A stretch of DNA of 64,000 nt from the NCBI RefSeq assembly GCF_963678975.1, contig NC_089274.1, forward strand, positions 21,971,133 through 22,035,132. The letters are read 5' to 3'. The DNA comes from Dysidea avara. Its lineage: Eukaryota > Porifera > Demospongiae > Dictyoceratida > Dysideidae. Within the stretch, counting starts at the first letter, position 1, and each line of letters starts with the position of its first letter. Both the position numbers and the translations under genes were made by a program. Below are positions 3,396 through 41,783 of this stretch, one piece after another. Below the pieces are notes generated by a model that saw only the letters and a list, made by a program, of their open reading frames with translations, was not told the DNA's origin and did not search any database.

Positions 3396-4064
3396 CTGAG
3401 TTGATCCCTCACTTGATTATGAGAAAGAACTGTTATGAACCAGTGTTTGACTATTTTATGAGTCCTACAGATGATGATTGTGAGGAACTGCAAAACGAAC
3501 AAGATAATCGTGAAAGACTGCAAGGCAAGGGTAATAATCAGGTGTGTATATAGATTGCATTGGACCAATCACTATTTTAGTGTGTGTTTATTGTACACAC
3601 CACAGTTAATTTGCAGAAATGCAATTCTGTGTACGTTGAGCTTTAGGATACAACACAAAGACGGTATTTGGCCAGTCATTGTAAATAAAGCAAGTTAGAT
3701 AAAACCGTCATTCCAAGTTGATCAAGTAGTTGTTCTAGCTTGTAAACTGGTGCCAGGGCACATTGAAACTTAAGAAAATACACCAAAAGTAAGGAAAGGC
3801 TTTTGCAACTGTATTTTGAACCACTGACCTGACCTCTAGCTTTGGTATGCTTGGAAATTTTTGTGATATGAAATTTTCTGCTGTGTTAATTGCAAAATCC
3901 ATGAAAATTACACACCATAAAAATTTCCACAATACCATGCACCATGTCACTGTTATACACTTGCTGCCAATTCCTTTTGCTTTTGTAAAATACAAAATGA
4001 ATTCATAACCCTATTAACACAGTTTCCTAACCATAGGAGCACATATTCTAATCCTAGAAGTGCA
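3396..4064. other. Intergenic, nothing recognised
   Basis: AT-rich sequence with no supported gene between the PGS1 fragment and the composite repeat. Confidence 0.45.
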
Positions 4065-8248: not shown

Positions 8249-11200
8249 ATGGCTGGCGAAGAAGAAGAACAAAATACCGGGGAAGACCCGAGGATGGCGT
8301 TTATCTCACAGTTCAGCATGAAGACGTTGAAGCAGAAAACAGACAAATGGTCTAAAATGATGAGCCAAGAAGACAATGTTGTGATGCTGCAAGACTTCCT
8401 AGAGAAGGGTGATACTCGTGTACTGGTGGTGTATGTAACACCACAAGGTCAGATGCAACCAACTACTGAGTTTCCAGCCACCAGCAAGCACAAGGCTGTA
8501 TATTTTATCAAACGTAAACCTGAGCCGATTAAAAAGGAAACGATTCACACTTTACTGATGTTTGGGGATATGTCGTACACCCCGTTGGACCAGTTGTCAT
8601 CACTTGTTGATGCTGTAAGTGTGTTTGTGTATATGTGCTGTAACGTGTGTAACTCAGAGTCTATGTGTGTTTGTTCTCACTACCCCACACACTCATGTCA
8701 CAGGTAATGCTACCATTACTGGGCAATGATTACAATCATGTCAAGTGGCCTAACGTGGTGACAGCAGATGTGATGAGGAACGTCACTGACTTAAAGGGAA
8801 ATGTGTTTGTGTTCTCTGGTCAAGTGAAGGGAAAGACTCTGTTACCTCTACCAGCTAGGTCTGATAATGTTGCAAAGGCAGCAGAAAGACAAGAACGGTA
8901 AATTGTCATTGATCACAATAACTTGTAAGGAGTTGTTACCCATTTAGTGGAATGCCATTTGACAAGACAGTGATTCATGCAGTAGAATCAGTTGTCATTG
9001 AATGGTCTCACCAGATCAGGGGAGTACTTAAGAAGACATCTGCTCAGCCATTGTTGGATGGCAAGTGTCCGTGGCCGACTGCAGAACTGGACTTCTGGAA
9101 GGCTCGTTATGCTGACATGGAATCAATAGTTGATCAGGTATACAACAGCATTTACTTTGTGTACAGTAATGACAATGTATTGATTATTATGTAGCTACAT
9201 GATAACAAGGTTGTTAAAATGAAGGCTTTATTGAAGAGAACACAGAGCAGCTACTATCCTGCCTTTGTGGACATGTATAAGGATGTAATGGAAGGTATGT
9301 AATAAAAGCTTTCATCACTATTACATATACTTGCTTAGCCCTTGAGGAAGCTGCTGATATTAACATGTTCCTGAGTCCATTGAGGCCACATTTTGAAGGG
9401 ATGGAGGAGTGTGATTATTTGGAGCTTGAGAAACGACTACCAGCAATCATGCATGTCATCTGTCTGATATGGGCCAACTCTAAACACTACCAACAACCAG
9501 CCAGGCTAGTTGTACTCCTGCAAGAAACGGCAAATCTCATCATTGATATTGTAAGTGTCATACAACATGAGGTGTTTGTATTTACCAGACTGTCTGTTAC
9601 AGACTAAGACATTTGTGTCTGAGGAGATACTTCGTATGGAACCAGACGAGGCACTAGAGAAATTAGCTGATGCTACAAAGATGTGTAAAGTGTTTGTGAA
9701 TGTGTTTAGTGACAGAAGGAAGAGTCTTGCTTCATATTTCAAAGAAGGACCCGTTGTTGAGTGGGACTTCCAATCCAGCATTGTATTCACAAGATTTGAT
9801 AAGTTTATGTCCAAGCTTAAACAATTGCAGGCAAGAAATTATTGCCAAATTCTTGATGATGTTGTTTCATGTAGTATTACCTTTGTAGGAGTACTTCCAT
9901 CTAGTGATGGAGTTTAATAAGTTGGAGAAGGTCGAGTATGGTGGCTTCAATGGACAAACTTTCAGTGATAAAACCGAACAAATGTTCACTAATTTTACAG
10001 AGCTCACTCAACGTATTCAACAGAAGAACTGTGACCCCCTCGACACTGCCGGTGATGTGAGTTAATGTGTGCATCGATCACACATGTTGATGACTGATTC
10101 AACAGGAATTTGATGAAGAATTTAAAGCCTTCAGGAATGCTGTATTAGACATGGAGCAGAGACTTGGTTCCATTGTGTGCCAAGCTTTTGAAGATTGTGG
10201 TTGCTGTGAATCAGCATTTAAAGTCAGTAATGTTTTATCAAACACATTATGTGTATTGATATAGTCACTGTATAGCTGATTGAGATGCTCGGTACACTAT
10301 TGGAGAGACCTCTTATCAGCAGAGACTTCCAGAACAAGTATCCGAAGCTGATTAACATGTACAATTTGGAGCTTGATGAGGCTAAACTGATATTTGATCG
10401 ACAGTTATTGTTGACCCAGTCACCCGAGGGACCTGTGATCAACAAGAACATGCCATATGTTGCCGGACTGTTGAAGTGGAGCAAAGAACTGAGAGATCGT
10501 GTTGATAGTGGGATGTCTAAACTGAAGACAATCAATCATGGGTAATTACCCTGTACATATGTCATTGATACTGCATCATCTGTTGTTGTTGTTTAGTACA
10601 ATGGAGAGTGCTGAAGCCATGATAGTGTTTAATAAATATGATGAGATGATGGAACTAATGAAAAAGTAAGAGATATGTGGTAATTGATGGTAGCATATGT
10701 ATACAGTACACTATTAATGCCCCTCCATTCCGAAGTGTAGAATATGTTAGAATTTGACAACTATGTAATATTCTAATAGAACATTCACTTGTGCTACAAG
10801 TGTTTTAAAATAGCTTGAGGTCATATGGAAATTAAAATTTACATTTTCTCATATAGTTTTGAGGATAAAACGTATCTTGAATGGACTGAAGGAGTGGATG
10901 CCATTGCCAAGACTAATTTGGAGCGTCCTTTATTAGTACGAGATGACAACACTGAATTACTCAGTGTCAACTTTAATCCTCAACTGGTAGCCTTGTTGAG
11001 GGAAGTTAAATATCTTGAGATGCAGAAGGATGCTAATCGTGTCATTCCTGAGAAGGCAGCAGCTGTGTTTGCTCAAAACGAAACTTACCGCAAGTATCTG
11101 CAAAATCTTGATGTGACGGTGCACCTTTACAACCGTGTCAGAGAAACCGTACTAGATGTGGAGTACCCATTAATTGAAGGACAACTACAAAGTATTGACA

Positions 11201-14200
11201 ATCAGATAGAGAGAGCTATATCGGAACTGAACTGGACCAGCGATGGTATAATCTTAATACTTTGTAGTGTGACAGTACATCTAGGTTAAACTTTTGACAG
11301 GTGCCTGGGAATATATTGAGTCAACACGTGATGTAGTTAGAGACTTGGAGAAGAGAGTACAACTGGCGAAGGATAATATAGAACAAATTATCACTATCAT
11401 GGCTAAGTGGTCTGAGTCACCAATGTACCTAAGGAAAGGTGATAAGAAAGATTCCTTGTTGAATTTGGAGGTATATGTAGCTATATTACATAACAGTGTT
11501 TAACAGTTTTGTTAATTAGGAAAGAGAAGCCAACCGTAAAGCTCGTTATGATAACATTACCTCTGGAGGTGAAAAAATACACAAGCTAGTGAAGGTATTA
11601 CTTGTATTTGAAAAACCAAGGTCATTTAATTGTGTATCATTTGGTAGGAAAATTTGGCATATTTCAAAGCTGAGGATGGTTCAAAGATTTGGCATGACTA
11701 CATCGAATATCTTGATGACATAGTGTTGGATGGCTTCTTCAACTACGTCCATTGTTCTCTTCAGTACTTCCTGGAGAACACAGACAAGGAGAAGTCAGGA
11801 ATGCCACCATTGCTCGAGGCCAGATTAGAGCTACAGGCACCAGCCATTATCTTCTCTCCTTCTATCGACCAGGATGCTGCTGACAGCTTCTTCATCTTGG
11901 TGGAAGGATTAGCAAATGATATTTTTAAAGGAGCATCTTTGATGCCACGACTAGCACTGCACAACGGGCAGGAAAATTATCAAGTAAGTCTTTATGTGGA
12001 TCCTGAATTGAAAGTGACCGCCTATTTTCTGAATTGTTGGTGTACATTCTATTAGAGTAATTGAGACGGTTTGTTCATATGCCACGTGTATGTATTTCAC
12101 AGAATGATGTGGAAGAGATTGCAGAACTTTCTGACTTGAGAGAAGAGTTGTTGGCACATGTTAACAATGCAATTGCTTTAGCTAGTGAATATTGCAACTC
12201 ATTCCAAAAGTACTCCTATTTGTGGGTTGATGACAGGCAAGAATTCATGCAGCAATTTTTGGTGTATGGACATGTTTTGACAGCTGAAGAAATTGAGCAG
12301 CATGGTGACGAGGGGGTGCCTGAGACTCCCCCAACACTAGAGCAGTTTAAGACACAGGTAGACACTTATGAGAAACTTTACATTGAGGTGGAGCAAGTTG
12401 AGGGCACTGCAATCTTTGATGTGTGGTTCAGAGTGGATTCTAGACCATTTAAACAAGCTCTATTAAATACTATCAAACGGTGGAGCTATATGTTCAAACA
12501 GCACTTAATTGATCATGTAGAGAATAGGTAAGATTTGTTCTTTACACATGAGCACAAGTGCACACTTGTGTGTGCACTTGTACGGGTGTGTGTGTTCATT
12601 AAAAGTTACTTTGAATATGAATTCCCCACAGCCTTACTGACTTAGCTGTCTTCATCAAGGAGACTAAGGCTGGTGTAGGTGTTGAAATACAAGAGGGAGA
12701 TTATGATGGATTAGTGGAAGTGATGGGACACCTACTAGCTGTTAAGGACAGACAAGCAACCACTGATGTGATGTTTGAACCACTGAAGCAGACCATTGAT
12801 CTTTTGAAGACGTATGAACAAGAGATGTCAGATGAGGTGCACCAGAGGTTACAGGAGTTACCAGAGCAGTGGAATGTCGTTAAGAAACAAGCTATAGTCA
12901 TGAAACAGAATGTTGCCCCACTACAAGCCAATGAGGTTTCTCTACTTCGAAGGAAAATAGCATCATTTGATGTAAGCTAAGAATTTTTGCTTTTTATTGC
13001 TATTCTCTAATGTATTTAAACACATTTAGGTGAAGCAGCACACATTTAGGGAGACTTTCAGGAAGAAGGCTCCACTGTTTTATGATTCCAACAATGTGTA
13101 CTCAAGAATTGATAAGGTGTGTATTGTGTTTGTTAAATAACATTTTATACACATATTTTTGTAGGTCAACTGTGATACTCAAGCTATGGAACAAGAGATG
13201 CAGCAATTGCAAGAAAGTGGTGGACTGTTTGAAGTCAACACTCCTGATTTCAAACAGCTCAAGGCTTGCCGCAAAGAAGTGGTCATGCTAAAAGCTCTCT
13301 GGGACACTATATTTTTAGTAAATAGTTCTTTTGATGACTGGAAGACCACATTGTGGAGAGAAATCAATGTGGAGACCATGGAAATGGATTGTAAGAAGTT
13401 TGTCAAAGATATCCGATCTTTGGACAAGGAGATGAGAGCTTGGGATGCATTCAGTGGTCTTGATTCTGCCGTGAAGAATATGGTGACATCACTACGTGCT
13501 GTTGGTGAACTTCAGAACCAGGCCATCAGGGACAGGCATTGGAGTCAGCTTATGCAGGCAACACAGGTTAGTACTGTTTAGCATGTACCGGGTTTATATG
13601 TGTTCATCAGGTTAAGTTTGTGATGTCAGATGAGACAACCCTGTCAGACCTGCTTGCTCTCAACCTACACAGTTTTGAAGATGAGGTTCACGGCATTGTG
13701 GACAAGGCCACTAAGGAATTATCAATGGAGAAGACATTGAAAGAATTGGATGCCACTTGGTCTCAGATGCAGTTCCAACATGAACAACATCACAGGACTG
13801 AAACAATGTTGCTAAAATCTGATGAAGAATTGATTGAAACACTAGAAGATAATCAGGTAATGATGATTGTGATTATTTGTATGAGATGTACAAGGTCTTT
13901 TGTGTTATAGGTTCAAATGCAAAACATGATGACTTCAAAATACGTTGGCTTTTTCCTGGAAGAAGTATCTGGCTGGCAGAAGAAGCTTGCCACTGCTGAT
14001 TCCGTGATAACCATTTGGTTTGAGGTGCAGCGAACCTGGTCCCATTTGGAGAGCATTTTTATTGGGTCTGGAGATATACGTTCTCAGTTACCTGAAGACT
14101 CTAAACGTTTTGATGGAATTGATACTGACTTTAAGGTAAGACTTACAGCCATGTATATATTGCTGTTGTTAGCTGTACATTGTAGGAGATAATGGCTGAA

Positions 14201-16943
14201 GCTGCTCAGGTACCCAATGTTGTTAAAATAACAAACAGGAAAGGTCTGTACGACCAATTGGAAGACATTCAAAAACGGTAAGGTAACAACAATATATTAT
14301 GGGTATATGCAGAGATGGGGTAACGCGTTACATAATAATTATAACATGTTACGTAATATATATTACAATTTGCGAGTTGAAGTAATATAATGCGTTACAT
14401 TGTGAAATGCATGTAATATAACTTAAGTTATACTTTTAGAAACTATTAACTCGTTACTAGTAACGAACAAAGTAATAATATTACGTAACAAGCAAGGTAA
14501 CGAGTAGCGATAAGCGCGATGTAACGAGTAATACTATGAGCAACAATGAGCCAGTAATGCATTACAAATGGCTTTTATACTGCGATTTACTATCCATTAA
14601 ACTACTCAGTGATCCATTACCTCAATCCATTAACCTTTCACCAATATTAAAGGATGCTGCCCGGTCCATTGGATTGATACGTACCACGTGACCACATAGA
14701 CCATTGCTATAAATGCCCACCGTCTGTGTGAAAACATGTGGTTTGCATGCATATATGCTGAAGTGTTAATTTAATTCATAATATTAAAGTATGTGAAGTT
14801 ACTTGCATTCAGTAACTTTAATATTTACAGCTAATAATATTAAGTTACATTTCACAAGTAACTTAATATGTAATATTATTAAGTAACATTTTATTTTAAG
14901 TAATATACTGTAATATATTTCATTGTGTAGAAAGTATTATGTATAATATGTAATATATTACCAAGAGTTAATAATAAGAGAGGCACTCTCTTATTATTAA
15001 CTCTTGATATTACTTTGAAAAGGTAACTTCCCCAACTCTGGGTATATGTCATTTACACATCTGCATATACAGGTTGGCAGTGTGTGAGAAAGCTCTGGCT
15101 GAATATTTGGAGACAAAGCGTCTTGCCTTCCCACGGTTTTACTTCATCTCATCTGCTGATCTGTTGGACATCCTGTCAAAGGGAAATCAACCTTCTGAGG
15201 TTAATTTAATACCACTAATGTTCCCATGTATAGTGTAAGTATTGTATGTAGGTTGCACGGCATCTGGCAAAGCTGTTTGACAGCATGGCCAAGTTGAAGT
15301 TCAAAGAGGATGACAAAGGAGAAAACACAGAGGAGGCACTGGTTATGTTTAGCAAGGATGGAGAGGAGTGCCCCTTTGACAATCCTTGCATGTGCATTGG
15401 ACCAGTGGAGGATTGGCTTAACAGGCTGCTGGACACAATGAAGTCTACTGTTAGGTACCAGTTCACTGAAGCTGTTGTTGCTTACGAAGAGAAGCCTAGG
15501 GAACAATGGCTGTTGGACTATCCTGCACAAGTGGCTCTAGCATGTACACAAATCTGGTGGACCACTGAGGTCGGTATAGCCTTCTCAAGACTAGAAGAAG
15601 GTTACGAGAATGCCTTGAAAGACTATTACAAGAAACAAGTCACTCAGTTAACAACACTTATCACTATGCTGCTGGGAGATCTCACCAAAGGATTGCGTCA
15701 GAAGATCATGACAATCTGTACAATTGATGTACATGCCAGAGATGTGGTAGCCAAGCTGATAGCACAGAAGGTGGAGAATGCTCAAGCCTTCACCTGGTTA
15801 TCCCAATTAAGACATCGCTGGGATGAAGAACAGAAACATTGTTTTGCTAACATCTGTGATGCCCAGTTCAAGTATTCTTATGAATACCTGGGGAATACCC
15901 CTCGTCTGGTGATTACACCTCTAACTGACAGGTACAGAGATTTAGTATCACCAAACTATCTTCTATTTCTTATCGCAGGTGTTACATTACATTGACGCAG
16001 TCTCTTCACTTAACCATGAGTGGTGCTCCTGCTGGGCCAGCTGGTACTGGCAAGACTGAGACAACTAAAGACTTGGGTAGAGCCCTAGGAATCATGGTGT
16101 ATGTGTTTAACTGCTCTGAACAAATGGACTATAAGGTTCATACTGCACTTACTGTAAAACTGAATTAAACAAATACTTTTGTAGTCTTGTGGCAACATTT
16201 ACAAGGGACTTGCACAGACTGGTGCTTGGGGTTGTTTTGACGAGTTTAACAGGATTTCAGTTGAAGTATTGAGTGTTGTTGCTGTCCAAGTAAAGTCCAT
16301 TCAGGATGCCATTAAGGCTAAGAAGAAGAGGTTCTTGTTTGAAGGCATAGAAATCAAACTCACCCCATCTGTTGGGTTGTTCATAACAATGAACCCTGGC
16401 TATGCTGGTAGGACTGAGTTACCAGAAAACTTGAAGGCATTGTTTAGGTAGAGGAATGTTAAATACATATGCCGTATATGTAACACTTCTTGCAGGCCTT
16501 GTGCTATGGTAGTACCTGATTTTGAGTTGATTTGTGAAATTATGTTGGTGGCAGAAGGTTTCCTTGATGCTCGACTGTTAGCCAGAAAGTTCATTACTTT
16601 ATACACACTTTGCAGAGAACTGTTATCAAAGCAGGTAACACTGAAACAGTTTTATAATCTGTTGCTCAGGATAATTTCCTAGGACCACTATGATTGGGGT
16701 TTACGAGCCATCAAGTCAGTGTTGGTAGTGGCTGGGTCTCTGAAGAGAGGTGACCGGGGCAGGCCTGAGGACCAAGTGTTGATGAGAGCTCTTAGAGATT
16801 TCAACATTCCCAAAATTGTCACTGATGACATGCCAGTGTTTATGGGTCTGATTGGAGACTTGTTCCCTGCCCTGGATGTACCCAGGAAGAGAGATTTGGA
16901 TTTTGAGAAATATGTGAAACAGGCTATTGTGGTATGTTGTGTG

Positions 16944-17008
<65 letters not shown>

Positions 17009-17388
17009 GGGGGAGGGGGGATATTAGATATCCTTACAGAGTAACTAAGTTGTAGACGTGCATTTACACTTTGTATAAATACTCTAATAAAGCAGTCTGC
17101 ATTAATTCACTTGTATACGTGTTGCACTTTCTTCAAGGAACTACGCCTGCAACCTGAGGACAGTTTTGTACTGAAGGTAGTTCAATTGGAGGAACTACTA
17201 AATGTTAGACACTCTGTGTTTGTTATTGGCAATGCTGGTACTGGCAAGACACAAATCCTCAAATCACTTAACAAGACTTATGTTATTATGAAGCGTAAAC
17301 CAGTTTGGGTTGACATCAACCCTAAAGCTGTCACAACTAATGAACTGTTTGGCTACATCAATCGTGCAACCAGAGAATGGAAAGATGG

Positions 17389-17481
<93 letters not shown>

Positions 17482-17898: not shown

Positions 17899-20800
17899 AC
17901 ACACACGTCATAATTAATGGATATACACTGGCCATATCGCCAGTAGTTATCTAAACAATTAAATAGAAGATGCTGAGATGGCCTCTTCAGGAAGGGAATT
18001 CCACCCAGTTAGAAAAAAGTTTTGGGTAGATTCCATGTTCTTATATAATTAACTTTACCGGCTCCAAGTGTACAATGAGGAACCGGATAGTTCTGTATGG
18101 ATTACCGTGGAATGGGAGAATGGGAACTGTGTGCTGTAGGCTTGGAGTTCTCCGTCACAGGATCACGGGAAACTCACGTGACTGCTGCTGTGACGCAATG
18201 GATGCTCTACGTAGCACCGTCTAGGCACATGCAAGCAAGGCGACTGCATGGATGAACATCTGTTGACTTCCTTCCTTGGAGGCCGTGGGGGGCGACCTAC
18301 CCCCTACCCCTACTAGCGGATCCCTCTCCAGACAGAGCCTACAGCACAGCCCATTGTCACACTAACACTATCGCAAGCCTCATGACTCGGTTCACCAGTT
18401 AGTGGAGGTATGACAGAGTAAAATGGGAGGGATCAGGGAGGGACAAAGAAGCAAGTTGCTATCGCAACGAAATTTCTGAAAAGAGCGGGTAGATTATCCC
18501 GCTTGCCCCCAACAACTGCTCTTTCGTCACGTGCGCGGAATTTGAATATGATGGAAGAAGGGGGGCATCTGCGTGTTGTGTCACCTCAAGTTAACACCCT
18601 TTAACCTGCGGTTAAATTCGTATTAACTTTACCGGCTCCAAGTGTACAATGAGGAACCGGATAGTTCTGTATGGATTACCGTGGAATGGGAGAATGGGAA
18701 CTGTGTGCTGTAGGCTTGGAGTTCTCCGTCACAGGATCACGGGAAACTCACGTGACTGCTGCTGTGACGCAATGGATGCTCTACGCAGCACCGTCTAGGC
18801 ACATGCAAGCAAGGCGACTGCATGGATGAGCATCCGTTGACTTCCTTCCTTGGAGGCCGTGGGGGGCGACCTACCCACTCAAGCTAGACTGTAGAGGGTA
18901 ACAGGCTAGTAGTTCACCACGGCCTTCTGGCTACAGCACACTGGAGCCGCATTCACCCATTCAAGCGATTGTGTGGCAGCATGATTGTATTTCGTGCGGA
19001 AATTATCTTCCACCTAACTAGTAAATGAATTAAATGGACCACACGCATACACACACACACACACCTTAATAACAAACTGAACATCCCAATAATATCCGGA
19101 AATATACTGGTACGGACAGTTTGAGAGAGCCGAGGACACTGCTGCCAGTCGATGGGGATCCATCCTGATATAAAGCTTGTACGAAGAGCTCTTCCATCTG
19201 CCCAGGGTCTGAATAGTTGAGTCTTCTATGCCTTCCATAGCTGCTGTGGTGGCCGCTCCAATACGGAAGCTATGGCCAGCAAAGTCACAAGCCGGAAGAT
19301 TAGCTGAAGTCAAAGCCTGGCGGGTTGCAGCGATAAAAGCCGTCTGGGATAGTGGAGTACCATCCTGCCATTGAAATAGAGCACCTGGAACACTCCCCCG
19401 TTTCTGTAGATAACTCATGAGGGCACTAATGGGGCAGAGGTCATCCCCTGTCTTCCCTATAAATACTTTGACGCCCACCCTTTCCTGATCTGTCTTGGAT
19501 TGCTTGATCAGGAGTGAAATGATTGCCGGGGAAACAGGATTATCGACTGCCACATCTGAGAAGGAGAGATCAGCACTGGGATCGAATTTGGCTGTATCCA
19601 TAACTGTGACCTCACCTGAGCGGCAGAAAGAAAAGAAAGTCACCACAGCTGCCGCCCATAACACTACTGAATTGAAAGTAGGCTGATCAGTGATCCAGAA
19701 TGGTTTAATCCTCCTTAAGATCATGGGAGTAATGGGTAAGCGAGAGTGTTGAGGATAACCATCCCTACCCTCTCAACTTTAATTCCTCTGCTCTCTGATG
19801 ACCTGCTGTAATCGTGGCATCAGACCAATCTTGGGATCAGGGAGGCCATGGGAGATTTGCAGCTGACGAACCCCTGCCAGGTATGTGCGGATTGAGGCCT
19901 CCGCTAGACCCTGTTGACCCAAGCATGCCACAAAGTAACACAGTGTGGTTTCTGAGGTTGGCAGGGGTATGATTGAGAAACTGGCACAAAAATCCAAGTA
20001 GCGATGCTCAGCTGATTGATAAGTTTTGTGAGTAGATGGAGCCAGTCCAGCCATATAATATTTCTATACTGCTGCAAGTTGGGAAACCGTCGCCAAGGAT
20101 CCTAAGGTGAAAGGAGAGCATCTCATGATGGTATATTCATACAAATAGCTATGGGAATATACATAGGAACAAATAACAGAACACAAGCACAGTTCAATAT
20201 ATTTGTACAGATATACACAGAGTCGTAACATAGAATTACTACTGAATAAGTCTGAAGTCAGGATATCTAGATCCGTTGTAGTCGGCCTTTACTTGTCTCA
20301 TGTAAAGATTTATTGTCGGATGTAACTGCCACAAATAGTTGAGCCCATGAGGGGGAAATCCAGGTAATGTTCTGGGATATGAGATCCACCAATGGACGTG
20401 ATATGGAGGCTGGAGAGGGTGATGCGTGAGGAATCATAGCAAAGAACTGGTCCAGATGGTTACGCGAGATGGCATCTGCCTGAGAATTGAGCCGGCCAGG
20501 AATATGGATAGCTGAGAACCAGAAATCATGCCAAGCAGCAAAGAAAGCCAATAGGCGAATTAAGTGCATCATATGGATGTCCTTAGATGTGGTAGGGTTC
20601 AGGACTAACACCACTGCCTCATTATCTACCACGAATTGAACCATCTTGCCTGACCAAGAGGTGCTAAAGGTAGCAGCCGCAAGCACCACAGGAATAAGCT
20701 CCTTGACAGCGATGTTCAAGTGATATAGACGGGGTGACCACTTTAGTTGTAGCCATAGACGGTCTTGGACTGCTCCGCAACCCCAAGAGCCAGAAGCGTC

Positions 20801-23800
20801 CGTGTAGATTGAGATGTCAACCCCTGTCAAGCCCAGGTCCCACAGGAGGGACACACCGTTCCACTGTTCGGCAAAGAGCAGTCACCAAGTGATATCCGCT
20901 ATGGCCGAGTTGTTGAGACGTACAAGATGATCAGGGCGGCTGCCCACTCCTTGAAGGGTGTATAATCTTCTTACGAAGGGCCTTCCCGGGCGGACCACTT
21001 TGGACGCGAACTGTAGTAGACCGGTTAACTGCTCTAATGCATGTTTGGTTACTGAACGATGGTAAGCATAGAGACGCAAGTAGAAGAGTAACTCGGTTAG
21101 TTTAGCTCTGGGGAGGCGGAGTTGGAAAGCTTCCATATCTACCTCGATTCCAAGGAAGGTCAGGCAAGGGGAAGGGCCTTCCAACTTGGACGGTTCGACC
21201 GGGACGCCGAGAGAATCAAACAGGGATAGTAGCAAACGCTTCTGTAGCTCTGCTGAGGGCTGAGACTGTGCCACGAAAATGAAATCGTCGAGGTAATGAA
21301 GGCCCCGGGATACTCCCTGGCGCATAAGTATCCACTGTATGGCGTCCGTAATAGCTGTGAAGACCTTGGGAGCTGAATGTAGGCCGAAGGGAAGCATTCG
21401 GTCGATAAACACAGTACCTTGCCATTGGACACCCAGAAAGTACTGGTCTTCTGGGTGGACTGGTACCATACGATAAGCCTCTTTGATGTCGGCTTTTACT
21501 AGGAACGGGCCCCTGCCCGTGGCTACAATCAGGGCTGCCAAGTGGTCCACGGAGGCGTAAAACAAAGAGGATCTTTCTTTGCTGATACCATTGTTAACGC
21601 TGAAATTCCTTGGGGATGATAGGTCTACAATAAGTCTCCACCTACCCGGCTTATGTTTCTTGGGAATTAGACCAATGGGACTAATGTGGATTCCCCTCGG
21701 GGAAAACCCTGTAGGGCACCGCCACATTCGGTTCAGCTGCACCTCACGTGCTAGGTAAGCCGATACCAGTGATGGCCTTGGAATGTATAGATTCTGGCCC
21801 GAGTATTGGAGTGGATAGGAGCGACTGAATCCAATACGGAATCCGTCGTGAATACCCGACAGGATATAATTTACAAATTGGCAATCCGGGTGATCGGCAA
21901 GCTGTGCTGCCCAGGTTGTCCATCTAAGAGAGGTATCAATCTCTGTAGAAATGATGGCGTTGGGAGTGGGTGAGTGACCACACTGGCTGTCTAAGGCCAA
22001 CAAGTCATCATAATACTTGTATCTTCCATTCATCACCATCCCTCCAGTGAACAGGGTGAGCTCCAGATCTATGGAGGGGGGGAACAGTGAATTACACACC
22101 AAGCGGTGGAGAGTTGATTCCCCCCAACCATGTTATATAGTTGCCAGTGACAACCAGAGAGTGGCATGCAAGGAGATACAATGAACTATGAAGTTGAACA
22201 AGTGGTCATACTTGAGACTTTATAACATGACATGATGTAAGTAGCTATGTTAGTTTGTATATGTAAAGGTATACATGTATAATAAGGCAAATAGGAGCCC
22301 AGCTCCATCAGTAATACAATAAGATAAATACATAAATGAGTCCGGCTCAGTATATACCATTGCTACATGATAAGTGTCAACCACAGGTGGGGAGGACCAT
22401 CCTCACTTTTTGCCCCACGATCGTTTCATGGTGCAGGCGATTCTTGAGTGAGGACCCCCGCACTCTGAGCAGGCGTGCAAATATTGGCAGCGTGGGCGCT
22501 GACAGTTGCCAGTGTTCCATTTGAAGCAGATGGGGGTGGTGCCAGCAAATAGATCTGTTGGTCCTGACGAGGCTGGGGGGGTGGGTCGGGGCAAACATCT
22601 GCCGTAAATCGAAAGGTTAAGTTCACCCCAGACATTAATGCCTTTGGCAGCTGCCCACTCCCTGAACTCCCAGTCGTAGACGAGCCAATGACGGCCGCCC
22701 AGATCTTGAGCTAATTGAAGCACCACATGAAGGTGGGCTGCAAGGCCTGCTGCCTCTGCCTTTGATGTCGTCGGAGCTGACAAAAGGACTGCCATCAGCT
22801 GGGCATATGCCTGCAACCAGGTAGCAAGATCCGTGATGGTGGAAGGGGACTTCCTCGGGGATTTGGCCTGAGTAACAATGTGGCCCTCCACCATTGACGA
22901 TGAGCCCTCACTGGAGTCAGCCCCTCCGATTAGCTGGGCCAAGTCTATAAACTCCCAGCGTCTGATTTTCTCAATGAGACGAGTGGACACTGGAGGAATA
23001 CCCTCAGCCACAACCAGGGAGGGGCCTCGGTTGAGTTGGGGAAAGTCCGGTACACTGCTTACAGGGGGCAGTGGTGCTCCCCGTACCCCCAGCAATGGGT
23101 CAACAGGAAGAAGTGGTCCAGCGCTGCGGCCACCTGAACAGAAACAATTAAGATAATGGCAGTCCATTAGCAATGTGACAGTGCGCTGCACTGGGCAACC
23201 AAACCAAATTACACAATGAAAGTAACTGGATACTGGCCTTTTTGGCCCCCCTTTGCTACCACCAGTAACTGGAGAGCAGCCTCCTATACTAGCGACTGCC
23301 GACAGGGTAGAGCAGCCAGGTAGAGTGCGCTGCACTACTCAGAGGATTGGTGCGCTGCACTGCTACGAACATTCAACAGAGCTAATATAAAGGAAAACAA
23401 CAACAGCCATGACCAATAACAGATAACTACCTGAAGACGAGGGTGGGACTTGTACCCCGGCTGGAGTAGCCGCAGAGGACAGGGGGTTTCTCGACGAAGG
23501 TCCCGGCTGTTGTAAAATTCCGGCAACGGTCGTGGCAATGTTTGAGAGGTCGTTCGGGGTAAGTCTCAGACGAAGCGTGGATGAAGTGGATGGCGGTAGC
23601 CCAGGCATGGACACTGGGATAGCCGGTGGGGGCGGAGGAAGTCCTGGAACTATCGGCACTGATGCCGGAACTACTGGAGCAGGAATGGCGGGAACCATTG
23701 GAACGGAGACAACTGGTTGCACGAGAACTGGAGCCGTTGTAGAGGACTGTATTGACACTACAGCCGGAGGAGCCGGCGGCACACCAGAGCCAGACGCTGA

Positions 23801-26800: not shown

Positions 26801-29800
26801 TGCTGTCAGCTTCCCGGGGATGGCTGCCCTTAACACAATTTACAGCAGTATCTTGTCTGGCCATGTTTCCAGTGGTGGCTTCACTGCACAAATACAAAAA
26901 TGTGTGGATAAGATTATTAGTGGAGCACTAGCCTTACATCAGAAGGTAACAGTCACAGCATTAAACTTTTGTAATGTTGACTCTTATTCTAGGTTGCCAG
27001 TACATTCTTGCCAACTGCTATTAAATTTCACTACATATTCAACTTACGAGATCTCTCAAACATATTTCAGGTAATCAAGACACACGGTAGTGTGTCATGC
27101 GGCCCAAGAAGCCGGCGCGCCACACCGTGAGTATATTAACAGGAAGAAAGAAAACACGATTTTCACACCTGTGATCCCATATCCAATTGGAACCAAATTT
27201 GCTACAGAGGTGCCGGCTAGGTTGGGGAGTGTACATAACAAATTTGAAGAAAATCGCTCCAGACATTTCCGAGATACGAGCGGCAAAAGTTTCGGGGTTT
27301 TTTTCTTCGCTTTTTCTTCTACTTCTTTTCGCACACTTTGCAAAATCTGCCATAAAACACGAATGCGTGCTCCAATCAGGCTGAAATTTGGCACACTTAA
27401 AGGGCTCATTACAGCAGATCTCAGTACAAAGTTTGGTAGGAATCCGATGAACATTCACGGAGTTATGACCAATTATTCACGTAAAATAAGGTTGAAGGTC
27501 TGTCATGCCCACAGGGTAAACCCCTTGGAGGAATGAGCTGAAAATTGCTATGTAGATGGAGTAACTATCGTAGGAGTGCCTTTTTGTGGTTTGAAAGGAA
27601 TCCAGATAAAGGCCATCGAGATATGACAAAACCCAACCTGTGTCACAATTACGCGATCGACTTTTATGAATAAAAAAACTATTAGTTTTCACGCCTACCA
27701 GGCAAACCGCTTAGAGCAGTGAGCTGAAAATCGGTGTGTAGCTGGAATAATCATCATAGAAAGTCCTTGCAGTAGTACAGAAGAATCGGAGTACAAACCA
27801 CTGAGTTGTGATCGAGGAGTCCGACACGTATGGAATCTAACATTAAGCAGGATTCAAATCCTTAAATTTTGGATAAATCTATAGGGCTAAAGAAATCTTT
27901 AAATCCTTAAATTTCCTGAAATTCCGTAAATTTTTGTATTCTATTCCTCAGTTCTCCGTTTATTCCTTGTACAAGATTGAGAAACTCTAATAGAGCAGTC
28001 AACTGCAGCAGTCGAAATTATTCTAATAAAATATTCATATGTTAAACAGATATTGAGGAAGAAAAGCTAAAATTTAATTCAAATTTAGTACTGTTAATCT
28101 GTAATTAGATACTTTGCATAACTCTGGTAGTTTATTTCAATGTATTTGAAATACATTAAATCATGTTTAAAATCCCAAATCCCTGCTAAAATTTTACAAA
28201 TATTGAATCTAAGGTCTTCGTGTCGGACCCCTCAGTTGTGATTCGAAAGCCAACTACATGTAGCAAATGCGAGATCGCGATACTCTAATAGAACAGTCAC
28301 CCTAATAGAGCATTCAACTACGTTTATAACTTACTCCATTATAGAATTATATTACATTGCAAGTTATTCTGTAGGGAGTTCAGCTACAAACAGTTAATCT
28401 TATAGACAATTCAGCTACAAGCAAGTCACCCTGTAGAAAGTTCAGCTACAAATATATTGCTGTAGAGATTCAGAACATTACAAGTCACACTGAAGAGAGT
28501 TCAGCTATAAAAGATTCTTCCTGTAGAGAGATCAGCTAGTAGAAGTTACCTTGTAGAGAGTTCAGCTACAAAGAAACCATCATGTAGAGAGTTCAGTTGC
28601 AAACAAATCACCCTGTAGAGAATTCAGCTGCAAGCAAATCACCCTGTAGAGAGTTCAACTACAAACAAATCACCCCGTAGAGAGTTCAGCTAGAAACAAG
28701 TCATCCTGTAGAGAGATCAGCTAGAAGGATCACCTTGTAGAGAGTTCAACTACAAACAAATCACCCTGCAGATAGTTCAGCTAGAAACAAGTCGTCTTGT
28801 AGAGAGATCAGCTAGAAACCAGTGACCTGTAGAGAGTTCAGCTACAAAAACAAATCACCCTTTAGAGAGATAAGCCAGACAAAGTAATACCCCTGTAGAG
28901 AGATCAGATAGAAACAAACCATCCTGTAGAGAGTTCAGCTACTGTGTAAACAAGTTACCCTGTAGAGAGATCGGCTAGAAAAAAGGAGAGATCAGCTAGA
29001 AACAAATCACTTTGTAGAGAGTTCAGCTAGAAAAAAGTCATCTTGTAGAGAGATCAGCTAGAAGGATCACCTTGTAGAGAGTTCAGCTACATACAAATCA
29101 CCCTGCAGATATAGTTCAGCTACAAACAAGTCACCCTGTAGAGAGATCAGCTAGAAACCAGTGACCTGTAGAGAGTTCAGCTACAAAAATACATCACCCT
29201 TTAGAGAGATAAGCCAGACAAAGTAATCCTGTAGAGACATCAGATAGAAACAAATCACCCTGTGGAGAGTTCAGCTACAAAGAAACCACCCTGTAGAGAG
29301 TTCAGCTACTGTGTAAACAAGTTACCCTGTAGAGAGATCGGCTAGAAACAAATCACCTTGTAGAGAGTTCAGCTACAAACAAATCACCCTGTAGAGAGTT
29401 CAATTACAAACAGATAACCCTGCAGAGAGTTCAGCTAGAAACAAGTCACCCTGTAGAGAGAATCCTGTAGAGAGTTCATCTACAAGTAAATCACCCTGTA
29501 GAGACTTCAGTTACATTTCAAGTCATCCAGTATAGAGATCAGCTGCAAACAAGTTATCCATAAGGAATAATTGACATGTAATAAATATATGTATTATATA
29601 TATAAAATTTGTACATTTACTGATGAAAATCAGAAATAGTTAAAGTATTTAAAATCTGCTTCATCCTTTTCTTCTTGCTGTGGTAAAGAAAAAAAGTTAG
29701 GTTTAAAAAAGCCCCAAAGCTGGCCATAGGGCAGCTTTGGGGTATACACATATAAAAAGAAGTGAAATCTAATCCAAAACAGCCAAGCTGTAAAAAAAGA

Positions 29801-32800
29801 GTGCGGCCCTCAAAAAGGCTATGGTGAAAAAAGATGTGAAATCCAAGGTGGCGGCCAAGAAATGACTGTGATGGTAGGTTAATGGTAAAAATTTTAATAA
29901 CAACAATTCATCTGAATTTGGTGCCGCTTGGTCTTGGCACAAAATTCACCTGAATTGTCATTATTAAATTTTTTACCATTAACCTACCATCACAGCCATT
30001 TCTTGGCCGCCACCTTGGATTTCACATCTTTTTTTTTACCATAGACTTTTTGAGGGCCGCACTCTTTTTTTACAGCTTGGCTGTTTTGGATTAGATTAAT
30101 ATATCATAATTATTTGGTCTATGTATTTTACAGGGAGTGTTGTTCTCTGGTTGTGACTGCATCAAAACTCCAATGGACTTTGTGCGTTTATGGCTACATG
30201 AGGCTAGTCGAGTATATGGAGACAAGCTAGTGGATGAAAAAGACATAGCTGTGTTTGAGAAAATTAAATTTGATGTTGCAAAGCAAACTTTTGAAGTATG
30301 TAAGAAAATTTATCTTAATTGGTTGATAATTTTTGCATAGGATTTAGACGATGAAGCACTAAGATCAGAGCCACTGATATATTGCCACTTTGCTGCTGGA
30401 ATTGGTGAACCAAAATACTTGTCTATCCCCACCTGGCCTCATCTTAGCAAAATCCTTGAAGAAGCTTTGGACTCTTACAATGAAATTAATGCTGTCATGA
30501 ATTTGGTGTTGTTTGAAGATGCGTTGCAACATGTGTAAGTAAACCATTTTAGTCACTGCGTAATATCACAATGTAATTCATATTTAGGTGTCGTATTAAT
30601 CGTATCTTGGAGTCACCTCGTGGTAATGCATTACTTGTCGGTGTGGGTGGTAGTGGCAAACAAAGCTTGACAAGGCTTGCTGCCTCAGTCAGTGGCTTAG
30701 AAGTATTTCAAATACAACTCCGTAAAGGATACAGCTCAGCAGATTTAAAGGTTCAAAAACTTACTACCATGCATTAAACTACCAATACATATTCACTAAT
30801 AGCTTGACCTGGCACAACTGTACATCAAGGCTGGTGTTAAGAGTATAGGCACAGTGTTCTTACTGACTGATGCTCAAGTACCTGATGAACGGTTTCTTGT
30901 GTTAATCAATGACTTGTTAGCGTCTGGTGAGATCCCTGGCTTGTTTGCTGATGATGAGTTTGAGAACGTTATTAGTGGTGTACGTAATGAAGTGAGGAGT
31001 ACTGGTATACAAGACACTAAAGAGAATTGTTGGAAATTCTTTATTGATCGAGTTAGAAGACAACTGAAGGTGACAATAAAATAACTATAGATATCATTTT
31101 TATAAATGATCTCTCATTAGGTCGTGTTGTGTTTTTCACCTGTTGGTACCACACTGAGGGTACGTAGCAGAAAGTTCCCAGCTGTAGTTAATTGTACTAG
31201 TATTGACTGGTTCCATGAATGGCCGGAAGAAGCTTTAGTGTCTGTTAGCTCAAGATTCTTGGCTGAAGTTGAACTTATTTCTGTAAGATTTTTGCTTTGT
31301 CCTCATACACAATAGATATTGCTACATATACTCTATTCCTGTAGGAAGATGTACGTAAGTCAGTGGCAAAGTTTATGGCCTATGTGCACAGCAGTGTTAA
31401 TGAAATGAGCAAATTATATTTGGCTAATGAACGACGTTACAACTACACTACACCCAAGAGTTTTCTTGAGCAGATCAAACTGTACGAGAACCTGTTAAAC
31501 AAGAAACACCAAGAGTTAACTTCCAGTATGGAGAGATTGGAGGGTGGACTGACTAAACTACAGAGCACTGCTGCTCAGGTAGATGATTTGAAAGAGAAAT
31601 TGGCTGCTCAAGAAGTGGAACTTAAGCAAAAGAATGAAGATGCTGATGCTTTGATTAAGAAGGTAAATTTGTTACACTCTGTGCATGTTTTCACTACCTT
31701 CTTGTATGATAGGTCGGTATAGAGACAGAAAAAGTTAGCAAAGAGAAAGAGATTGCTGATGCTGAAGAAAAGAAGGTGGCTATTATTAACAAGGAGGTAT
31801 CAGAAAAACAGAGATCTTGTGAAGAAGATTTAGCTAAGGCAGAACCTGCCCTCAAAGCTGCAGAGGCTGCTCTCAACACACTAAACAAAAACAATCTTAC
31901 TGAACTGAAATCTTTTGGCAAACCTCCTCCTGCAGTAATGAATGTTACTGCAGCTGTAGTAGTACTATTGTCACCTTCCAGTAAAATACCGAAGGATCGT
32001 AGTTGGAATGTATGTAAAGCATTTATGGGCAAAGTAGATGCTTTCTTGGATTCTCTACTACACTTTGATAAGGAGAACATTGCTGATCCCAACCTTAAGG
32101 CTGTTGATCCATATCTGAGCAATCCTGAGTTTGATCCAGAATTTATCCGTAACAAATCATTTGCTGCTTCTGGTTTGTGTTCATGGGCCATTAACATTGT
32201 AAAGTTTTATCGAGTGTTTTGTGATGTGGAGCCCAAGCGACGTGCTCTGGCTCAAGCCAATGCAGAATTAGCAGCTGCTCAGCAAAAATTGACTCAGATC
32301 AAGGCCAAAATTGCTGAATTAGATGAAAATCTTGCATCTCTAACAGCTGAATTTGAGACTGCCACAGCTGCCAAGCTGAAATGTCAACAGGAAGCCGAGT
32401 CAACAGCACTGACAATATCTCTTGCTAATCGGCTAGTAGGGGGTCTTGCCTCAGAGAAGGTACGTTGGGCTGAGTCTGTACAGAGGTTCAAACAAGAAGA
32501 GAAGACGCTACCTGGAGATGTACTGCTGACAACAGCCTACCTGTCCTATGTGGGCTGCTTCGGTAAGAGCTATCGACAAGATTTGCTGGATAATAAATGG
32601 CAACCATTTTTGAATACGCTAGAGGTATGTCTTGTGTTTCGGTACTTTGATATTATAGTATTTTAACAGCCTAAAATACCAATGACTGAAGGGTTAGATG
32701 TGCTACACTTGCTAACTGATGGAGCCACTATTGCCATTTGGAACAATGAAAACCTCCCCAGTGATAGGATGTCTACTGAGAATGCTACTATACTGACAAA

Positions 32801-38170: not shown

Positions 38171-38446
38171 CCAAACCTTCGAGGTGGAAAGCGAATACGG
38201 CTATGAAATACGGATCTCCGTTTATTAAAGCAGCATGGAATCCTAATGAACGTGTCAAACTTGGTGGAGTTCAGAGAGTCTGAGCGAAGTCCCGTCGGGC
38301 AGCTAGCCAGCTCTGGGCGCGGTATCTCCGGTCTTGCAACTTCCGCGGACTGTATCCTTTTTCACTCCGCCCTTCCACTTGTTTATTAGTGTTGCTCTCG
38401 GTGTTGCTAAGATGTCCAGAGGGCTGAACATGTTGTTAACACTTAA

Positions 38447-41400
38447 CGCAATGTAGTTCATGTTGGCAGTATTGATTCTGTTAACAAGCAAATCAGTGAT
38501 TCTTTCGTGGCGGACAGACACTCAGTGGCTGCTCCACTAGTGTGCGATCATGACCACTCTTCAAATGTGCATCTTGATAAGCCAGTTGCTAAGAAGAGGA
38601 AGAGATTAAAACGCACTTCTTCTGTCCCCTTGCCTACACATCAAACTAGCCCAGAGAAACATTCTGCCCTGATTGAAGTAAGTTTTATGCTGTATATGTC
38701 ACTGGGAAGCATGTTATGTACCCCGCCTCAAATCCATTGGAACATCTACAGTACAGATTTTGGATCAAATACAGCGAACAACAAAAGTTTGGCATGACTT
38801 TAAGTTTGGCGAATCAGCATGCGAAATAGGTTGGTGAGCAAAGGTTTGCAAATAGCCAATATAATTGGTAAATAAAGTTTGGCGAGTCCACTTCAATTTG
38901 CCAAATTTAGTCATGCCAAACTTTCGTTGTTAACGGTATATTGCAAAGTATTTAAATTAAACTACAAATACACTAACTCAAATACAACACTTGTAAAGTG
39001 ACTCAACGTGCCACTTTATTGCCTTGCATGTAGTTTACTATACAATTATTTGTTAATGCTGTTATTGTAAGACTAGCTGTATATGACTATTGATTATGAA
39101 TAAACACCAGTTCCTTGTGGGTTGAGATATTTTTGCCTACAGTATTTTTGATGGGTGTAGATGATGCTGGTATACACAGAAGCTGTGGCACTGTTTTAGC
39201 CAATGGGAAAAGCTTTGCCATTGGAAGAGACTTCTTTAAACTTGCTGCAAAAATGTAGATTTCACTTGCTTACATATGTACTGGTAAATTTCAAAGGTTG
39301 TATGAAATTCAGCTTTTATTATTGGGAAGGACACAGTATCTACAGCACAACAGGTTGGAATTAGAAGGAGCTAATAATGTCACTGAACCAGCTACAATTC
39401 ATCACCCATTGGTCCAAAAAAGTGTCACAGAGTGAAAAATCTTATTGCTGCAGTGAGTAGTGTCGGGTTTCACTTTTTGTTGCACCGGTAGGACTTAGTA
39501 TTATAGAGGATTCACCATATGTTGTTTACAACTAGACGGCCACTTTTCCTGGCTACTCACCCCACCACACTACCCCATTACCTCAAGGCATAGACGCCAC
39601 CCATCATCTCCAACTAGTCATTGACGCTCAGGATGATCTCAAGTGTAAACCATTTTTAAAAGAATTCTGGACAGAGCAGTTCCTATCGCAGTGTTCACAA
39701 GCCATTTTCCTTGACACGTTCTGGTGGTGGTTCTTGCAAAAATTTCAAGTGAGTTTATGTTAAGATGTGGTCTTCTTTTTCAACTATGACCAACAAGACC
39801 TATAATAGTTTTGATGTGAATCCTGTTGTAGCAGGCAACTAAATATAGCATTGAACTATGTGGAGTAGATCCTTACACACAGGCATTTGCCCTACTATTA
39901 ATAGTAACTATTTGTACCATATAGGTACAAGAATGTATGCATGGTCACCTCTCATTCCATGCAGGCTAATCAGCCGATACAGGATAGCTTGTTTACAAGG
40001 ATATCTGATCATTATGTGGAGTTTCTTAATGATTGTGCCATGGCTGCTGTTGATGTCAAGTGTGCTGAGACATTTCTTCATCGTTATCCTGACTGTATGT
40101 GCCAGGCTGTGTATAGTGCTTTCATAAATGGCTACCCTGCGTCATGGAAGAGATTTGATGGAGAGTTTCGTACCGATCTCTGTAACATAGTCCACATGTG
40201 GCAAGTTGGTATGATATATATGTGATTACCAGAAATGCTGTGTTGTACTGAAATCTCACACCATATTAAAATGATCTCCTGATTATAATGGTCATGTTGG
40301 GTAGGTCCTAATATAACTAATGATCTAATGATTGGTACCACATTTTTGTCCAAAAATGAGGTTTGAGCATGGTATTTTAGAAACCAATCGTGGTCCCATT
40401 TGTGCAATAGTGTACACACAATCCCAGGACACTATATACAGTTTTGTATTGCACTACATTTTTAGGTCCCCAAAATCTCCAATCGTGCTATGCATAGTAG
40501 AGAGGTACATATGTACTACTGGTAATATATTATATTTTCACAGGTACAAGGCCAATATCACGATACTGGTTGAAATGGAATTATGATGTCCTTGAACCAG
40601 ACAATAAACTAAAACACATGACAGCAACTGAAGACTCTACTTCACCCAAGTCACCCAAAAAAGGTGTGCCAGTGTGTTGTGTATTATGACTTAGTCCATC
40701 ATGTATTAGATTTCATCTTTGACAAGCTCATCCAGGAAGAGAGAGAGAAGGCAAATTCACTTCCTTCTCAAAAAGAGGCAGCACCATCAAGACAAATTTC
40801 ATTTCACAAGACATTAAGTAATGTTAGTACTGGTGTAAAGTTTTCAGAAGATGGCAGTGATATTAAACGATTAGCCCCACAGATTTTAGTCCATGACACT
40901 GACAATAAAACAAGTGCAATTTCAGTATTAATAGAGCCAGAAACTCAGCCACTATCAACAAAAGATGCTGCTACTACTGCACAGACTAAACTGTCCAGAA
41001 GGTGCAGAAAAACTAAAGGGTGGACACCAAAACTAGGTAGCAGAGATACTAGTGTTCAGGCAAGTGTGGGAGCTATCTTTTTTTATGGGCAGACACTTAT
41101 GCAACTTTTTATCTAACTGTAGTCCCATCCAGTTGGTCAGGGAGTTAGGTTTGCTCATGTGGTATTCGACACATGTGGCCACAGTCCTCTGGTAAGACAT
41201 TATCTGGAGAGGAAAGGATTGTTGAAGAGTTCAGGATACTCTATGTTGGTGAAGAGAACAGAAGTAGACAAGCTACCACCATATCCTTTGAGAATTAGTT
41301 ATATTGTATTGAGTTTTCCTTAACACTTGCCACTATTGAATCACAAACTTACAGAGATCTTCTTCATGAGTCATCTGTGACCAGCAAGGCTGCCCATGCT

Positions 41401-41783
41401 ACATTCAACCAGTATGGGAATAGAATTCTTAACAAAATGCGTTATTTGATACTCCATAACTACAGGAAATACTCAGAGCAAGTGCAGGCATTGAACAGAT
41501 TTGAACATCAGTTTCAAAAGGAGCGCACACAACATAACAAGTGAAAAATTGTGTGTAGGTTCATATTTAAATGCTTTTTACAGTAATGTCAGTAAAATCT
41601 TGTCCAAGCCTCGTGTAGTACGAAAACTAAGCAATGCCTTATTACTCCAAGTAATGGTAAGACGCAACATGTATTTGTTAGGCACTTTAACCCATAGAAT
41701 TGTTGTAGGGAGAAGGCAGGAGGATCACTCAAATATCAAATACCATTGAAGAAACACTAGAGCAACTGAAATCAACATTGTAA
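38447..41783 (+). CDS. FAM227: FAM227-family protein (FWWh domain)
   Basis: Function poorly known; the family is linked to cilia and sperm. Eight exons join in phase: 39536-39748, 39965-40208, 40544-40663, 40710-41059, 41123-41280, 41334-41540, 41584-41650, 41709-41783 (477 residues to TAA). The diagnostic AIFLDTFWWWFLQKFQ precedes LFTRISDHYVEFL, YSAFINGYPASWKRFDGEF and TCGHSPLVRHYLERK, the family's core order. Upstream, an open segment to 38,677 with donor GTAAGT (KKRKRLKR-rich) and exon-like pieces near 39,200 and 39,291-39,440 (LYEIQLLLLGRTQYL) are probably earlier exons, but I could not join them in phase and no start codon is fixed. Intron 41281-41333 is U12-type AT-AC and 41060-41122 is GC-AG. 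It is divergent from PGS1 and convergent with NDUFAB1 (58 bp). Whether it is FAM227A or B is not resolved. Confidence 0.88.
38774..38935. mobile_element. MITE in the 5' part of the FAM227 gene
   Basis: AACAACAAAAGTTTGGCATGAC on the left pairs with GTCATGCCAAACTTTCGTTGTT on the right, with further AGTTTGGCGA repeats inside. About 160 bp, non-coding, probably intronic. Confidence 0.75.
41060..41122 (+). other. GC-AG intron in FAM227
   Basis: Exon ends GTTCAG and the intron starts GCAAGTGT, ending TAACTGTAG. The join keeps the frame (SVQ then SHPVGQG). Reading through the intron also stays open for a time but ends at a stop at 41,114-41,116, before the conserved CGHSPLV segment. Confidence 0.85.
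41281..41333 (+). other. U12-type AT-AC intron in FAM227
   Basis: The 53-nt intron starts ATATCCTTTG, the exact minor-spliceosome 5' site, carries TTTCCTTAAC at 41,315-41,324, the exact U12 branch-point consensus, and ends CCAC ten bases after the branch A. Joining CC from the upstream exon to TATTGAATCAC downstream keeps the frame (LPP then IESQTYRDLLHES). No GT donor in this stretch gives an in-frame join to the later AG. Confidence 0.92.

Follow-up and report, generated by a model that had tools for sequence, protein, structure and literature searches.

Results

Features of the FAM227 locus

The window analyzed here, a 64,000-nucleotide stretch of Dysidea avara DNA (C3:21971133-22035132), contained a FAM227-family gene with a dynein heavy chain gene as its neighbor. 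The proposed FAM227 features, all of which were located on the forward strand, were as follows.

39578..39748, + strand: exon with the FWWW motif; the start given is the first residue of the Pfam query, and the 5' limit is provisional
39965..40208, + strand: exon, FWWh domain
40544..40663, + strand: exon, end of the FWWh domain; as drawn, the frame is lost between this exon and the one that follows
40736..41059, + strand: linker exon; its acceptor is unsure, and its 3' end borders a proposed GC-AG intron (41060-41122)
41123..41280, + strand: exon 5' of the AT-AC intron, ending ...TEVDKLPP with CC as the last bases; similar to the paralogue (E 7e-09)
41281..41333, + strand: putative U12-type AT-AC intron, 53 nt, phase 2, assigned from its letters, the frame, and a homologous intron in the paralogue
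41281..41289, + strand: putative U12-type 5' splice site ATATCCTTT, with CCUUU and UCCUUU complementary to the U11 and U6atac RNAs of the genome, respectively
41316..41324, + strand: putative U12-type branch site TTCCTTAAC, branch A at 41323 (or 41322), eight potential pairs with the U12 RNA of the genome and one A bulged
41334..41540, + strand: exon 3' of the AT-AC intron, beginning with T and continuing IESQTYRDLL...
41584..41650, + strand: exon; the frame is open across the proposed introns 41541-41583 (43 nt) and 41651-41708 (58 nt)
41709..41783, + strand: final coding exon, open frame, TAA stop

The exons 5' of the AT-AC intron matched Pfam family PF14922 (FWWh) with an E value of 1.1e-42 and a score of 146 bits (cut-off, 25), and we take the human members of this family to be FAM227A and FAM227B. 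The C-terminal portion of the predicted protein had no match in Pfam. No FAM227 relatives were found in the PDB or in the viral and genome contig collections, from which the genome of the window itself was possibly left out. The proposed intron at 41060-41122 was of the GC-AG type (CAG/GCAAGT) and was 63 nt long.

Two repetitive features were observed in the span of the dynein heavy chain gene. A retroelement whose open reading frames encode a tyrosine recombinase and a reverse transcriptase was located at 19014-23338 on the reverse strand; this combination is presumably that of a DIRS-like element. The other feature was a tandem array at 28369-29460, in which a 31-bp unit was repeated about 35 times.

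Letters and frame of the AT-AC intron

The U12-type 5' splice site has the consensus RTATCCTTT, and the U12-type branch site, which is located near the 3' end of the intron, has the consensus TTCCTTRAY. The forward-strand letters of 41281-41333 were ATATCCTTTGAGAATTAGTTATATTGTATTGAGTTTTCCTTAACACTTGCCAC. As indicated by this sequence, the stretch began with AT and ended with AC, and neither ATATCCTTT nor TTCCTTAAC had a mismatch to its consensus (0 of 9 positions in each case). The second A of the branch site was 10 nt from the final base of the intron, and nine bases, ACTTGCCAC, separated the branch site from the exon boundary at 41333/41334.

Joining 41280 to 41334 produced a single open frame, ...VKRTEVDKLPP/IESQTYRDLL..., in which the peptide at the join read ...KRTEVDKLPP/IESQTYRDLLHE.... 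With the two proposed GT-AG introns farther downstream (43 and 58 nt) also removed, this frame ran to a stop codon directly after ...SNTIEETLEQLKSTL. Retention of 41281-41333, on the other hand, led to a stop 13 residues past LPP, at a TAA within the branch site. RNA folding around the intron was no better than that of shuffled sequences (z 0.61). The original prediction of a 53-nt AT-AC intron with exact U12-type 5' and branch sites, an AC end ten bases after the branch A (the second A of the branch site), and a join that restores the FAM227 frame was thus borne out by the letters; the frame stayed open through two more exons.

Minor spliceosome components

All four minor snRNA families named in the original prediction were found over the Rfam cut-offs when the genome was searched. 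Specifically, the U12 match scored 107.7 bits, the U11 match scored 83 bits, and two U6atac matches scored 108.5 and 58.1 bits, all of them over the Rfam gathering scores; the U4atac match, at 57.6 bits, was just 4.6 bits over its cut-off of 53. The weaker U6atac match (58.1 bits, C5:36200715-36200813) lacked part of the middle and the 3' stem and was possibly a pseudogene. In the window itself, nothing reached the Rfam cut-offs, and none of the 12 weaker matches up to an E value of 1 was a minor snRNA.

Alignment of U11, U12, and U6atac indicated that the intron-pairing segments were present in these three RNAs. In 41281-41333, CCUUU was complementary to U11, UCCUUU was complementary to U6atac, and UUCCUU-AC was complementary to U12 with one A bulged. 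The U11/U12 particle also contains a protein, PDCD7, for which the genome had a single match (58.4 bits); this match was interrupted by one TAG, perhaps because of an intron.

U12-like motifs in the window and in the genome

We scanned the window for U12-like pairs of sites that had at most one mismatch in all and were at most 3000 nt apart. The pair in 41281-41333 was the only one that had no mismatch at either site. None of 60 simulated 128-kb sequences contained a zero-mismatch pair within 100 nt, and pairs with up to one mismatch occurred in the simulations at 0.08 (AC) and 0.05 (AG) per 128 kb. When the 5' motif was counted alone with at most one mismatch, its frequency was at chance level (20 in the window versus 21.0 expected); the exact 5' motif was present once, at 41281.

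The window also contained other candidates. A one-mismatch pair on the forward strand, 24314/24940 to 25478/25481, was set aside, since by eye the branch-like motif on which it relies, near 25458, looks like dynein coding sequence. The motif GTATCCTTT, at 38352 on the forward strand and at 30724 on the reverse strand, had no partner within the limits of the scan. On the reverse strand, 8541-5541, a one-mismatch U12-like pair spanning 3001 nt, was set aside as well.

The genome (550.8 Mb in 108 contigs) was then searched with the pattern ATATCCTT N15-45 TTCCTTRAC, which yielded eight matches versus 10 for the reversed control. Thus, the AT motif pair alone proves nothing at that scale. The significance of 41281-41333 comes instead from its fitting exactly between two coding exons in one frame, from the absence of a U2 alternative with a typical score, and from the intron in the paralogue, all of which are described below or above.

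Three of the eight matches were in-frame AT-AC introns. One was the 53-nt FAM227 intron, and the others were as follows.

L007, C9:15538285: AT-AC intron in a casein kinase II beta (CK2-beta) gene, 69 nt
L009, C12:22352194: AT-AC intron in a myosin-VII-like gene, 59 nt

The joined CK2-beta peptide aligned with a solved protein without a gap across the junction (E 4.9e-37). The joined myosin VIIa peptide aligned with a solved protein with one 1-residue gap located off the junction (E 8.6e-16), and the short joined peptide of this gene had no match in Pfam. The remaining five matches were read individually, and none had an in-frame AC intron.

The GT version of the pattern had 15 matches genome-wide, compared to 4 in the control. 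When tested loosely, 14 of these had an AG end flanked on each side by 10 or more open codons. Joined peptides from eight of the 15 were checked in Pfam; L026 (the FAM227 paralogue), L020, L024, L025, L029, L030, and L032 were left out. For VPS35 (L027, 61 nt, GT-AG), the Pfam match spanned the junction with confidence. The matches of TRAPP (L022, 53 nt) and DHHC (L023, 59 nt; E 0.004) also spanned the junction, each below the Pfam cut-off, and that of ERF4/GOLGA7 (L031, 58 nt), also below the cut-off, reached only two residues past it. In the case of SRP68 (L019), the match was over the cut-off and lay wholly past the junction, and the joined peptides of L021, L028, and L033 had no match. L021, L029, and L032 looked like copies of one repeat.

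The original prediction also implied a working minor spliceosome in this organism. What stood was the presence of the parts, namely, the four snRNA families, the PDCD7 match, and the other short in-frame U12-type introns; that the machinery works went beyond these findings.

A second FWWh gene with a U12-type intron

The FWWh model takes no account of splice sites, and a genome search with it returned three matches, two of which were exons of the window gene. The third was a single place on contig C7 with a TAG inside. The following feature was found in this second FWWh/FAM227 gene.

L015 (C7:10582500-10590500), 3458-3508: putative GT-AG U12-type intron, 51 nt

This intron read GTATCCTTC ... 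TTCCTTAAC ... AG, with one mismatch to U12 in the 5' site, none in the branch site, and 10 nt from the branch A to the end. The paralogue protein, ...ALTRTEVKALPP/PAPTYKQV..., spanned GTATCCTTC...TTCCTTAACACAGTGTAG. Two of the three pieces of the paralogue were over the PF14922 cut-off of 25 (26.1 and 48.4 bits); the piece adjoining the junction had no match in Pfam, which was also the case for that part of the window protein.

The introns of the window gene and the C7 gene were both in phase 2 and both interrupted LPP within the codon for its second P, directly after CC. Around the junction, the two proteins were 38% identical over 55 columns (E 7e-09, in a single comparison). The similarity 3' of the junction was short and faded after TY. 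In a longer alignment the identity was 25%, and that row probably ran into an unspliced intron. The presence of a U12-type intron at the same codon of the paralogue is independent evidence that 41281-41333 is real and U12-type. Because one copy is AT-AC and the other is GT-AG, it also points to a subtype switch in one of them.

Neighboring U2 introns and alternative explanations

Matrices for U2 introns were built from 25 of 28 predicted dynein introns, all of them in 8250-17390; 8381-8484, 9696-9888, and 16154-16205 were left out, by eye, as artefacts of the simple predictor. The median length of these 25 introns was 53 nt, with a range of 44 to 795 nt. The remaining FAM227 introns were 43, 58, 63, 72, 216, and 335 nt long, although the acceptor of the 72-nt intron was unsure. 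Since the U2 median in this part of the dynein gene was 53 nt, a 53-nt AT-AC intron was of ordinary size for its genome. The description of the intron as being as short as the U2 introns around it was therefore fair for the genome, and its length was not remarkable here, contrary to what the phrase "only 53 nt" had implied.

In leave-one-out scoring, the dynein introns had a median of 11.4 bits, a 10% quantile of 7.3 bits, and a minimum of 2.7 bits (n = 25), and the four FAM227 U2 introns that were scored ranged from 9.9 to 16.2 bits. All 29 of these U2 introns had at least three mismatches to the U12 5' splice site, whereas 7 of the 29 contained a stretch with two mismatches to the branch consensus, so the 5' site sets a U12-type intron apart more clearly than the branch consensus does.

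It is conceivable that the major spliceosome removes an overlapping GT-AG or GC-AG intron and that the AT-AC signals are a coincidence. There were 48 in-frame splicings of the stretch, of which the 22 GT-AG or GC-AG pairs were scored and the other 25 AT-AC pairs were left unscored. In-frame GT-AG pairs such as 41264-41313 and 41306-41370 were present, and the best of the 22 alternatives, at 3.2, 2.8, and 2.7 bits, reached the level of the weakest real dynein intron (2.7 bits); none was near a typical one. All 22 fell below the 10% quantile, with 41264-41313 and 41306-41370 scoring just 1.6 and 1.5 bits. In addition, many of the alternatives would remove part of TEV.LPP..TY, which is common to the paralogue, and a coincidence would leave the U12-type signals at the same codon of the paralogue unexplained. 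We therefore consider this explanation highly unlikely. It seems just as improbable that the FAM227 copy or its intron is inactive, that is, a decaying remnant retained in RNA to give a truncated protein. Retention would bring in the branch-site TAA 13 residues on, and the available text of one study (PMC6717393) states that retained minor introns were significantly shorter than non-retained ones. However, the proposed FAM227 frame was intact up to its stop, and the window copy had no mismatch at either site, compared to a single mismatch in the paralogue, located in its 5' site, with an exact branch site.

Separate gains of a U12 intron at one codon in the two FWWh genes would also account for both introns. 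Nothing beyond the subtype difference favored separate gains, whereas the phase, the codon, and the 10-nt branch spacing were identical in the two genes. Shared descent needs one gain only, which disfavors separate gains, and we regard them as very unlikely. Shared descent is the reading we prefer: the two FWWh genes most likely arose by duplication of a gene that already had the U12 intron at its LPP codon. The subtype would since have switched in one of them, leaving AT-AC in one copy and GT-AG in the other; when the switch took place and in which direction are matters of inference.

Discussion

On the basis of its sequence, 41281-41333 is almost certainly a genuine U12-type AT-AC intron of FAM227, and it is most likely older than the duplication of the two FWWh genes. 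The letters, the frame, the snRNA genes, the pairing potential, and the position of the paralogue intron suggest that it is very probably removed by splicing. In the mechanism we propose, U11 and later U6atac would pair with CCUUU of the 5' site, and U12 would pair with UUCCUUAAC, bulging an A. The intron would then be removed as AU...AC, and CC would be joined to T in phase 2 within the LPP motif of FAM227.

The four minor snRNA genes of this genome occur together with consensus minor introns of about 51 to 69 nt, where ordinary introns are often about 50 nt. Short minor introns in a short-intron genome suggest that minor introns can shrink along with the others. Among the literature matches listed, we found no report of minor splicing in sponges, and Amphimedon was not named in the available portions of the main texts of PMC2831892 and PMC10639083.

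We also lean, if only slightly, toward a broader proposal in which FAM227 is an overlooked ancient family of minor-intron genes. Under this proposal, the LPP-codon intron would predate the duplication, and perhaps the split between FAM227A and FAM227B, and one copy would have switched subtype. If this is true, the presence of both subtype states in one genome is a natural experiment on switching. The proposal predicts U12 introns in the FAM227 genes of other species. Outside of supplementary gene lists, no report of FAM227 as a minor-intron gene was found in the literature, and FAM227 was absent from the available main text of PMC13216214 and PMC6717393.

The original prediction had further described the intron as a regulated step in a cilia-linked gene. 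Neither half of this description was supported. The available portions of the literature on radial spokes, the axoneme, and cilia held no tie between FAM227 and cilia, and the dynein heavy chain gene next door is only suggestive of one.

U12-type introns are well known as a class, and the useful addition here is the difference in subtype within one genome. An intron of 53 nt is short compared to human minor introns. In the available text of a survey of more than 3000 genomes, the lengths of minor and major introns were correlated across species (rho 0.903 for medians; PMC10639083), so a short minor intron is expected in a short-intron genome. In the same text, Blastocystis has the lowest mean length of minor introns, slightly less than 42 bp and thus below that of the FAM227 intron, and about 26% of human minor introns are classified as AT-AC; as far as this source goes, both the subtype and a length this short have precedents. 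Changes of subtype between AT-AC and GT-AG introns have been observed and, according to the available text of PMC3584512, are apparently rare. The known cases resemble the one described here in that AT-AC and GT-AG introns occupy one codon position. They differ in that both states are found here in a single genome, in two FAM227 paralogues, and this pair allows the two subtypes to be compared at a single codon, so that subtype switching can be put to the test.
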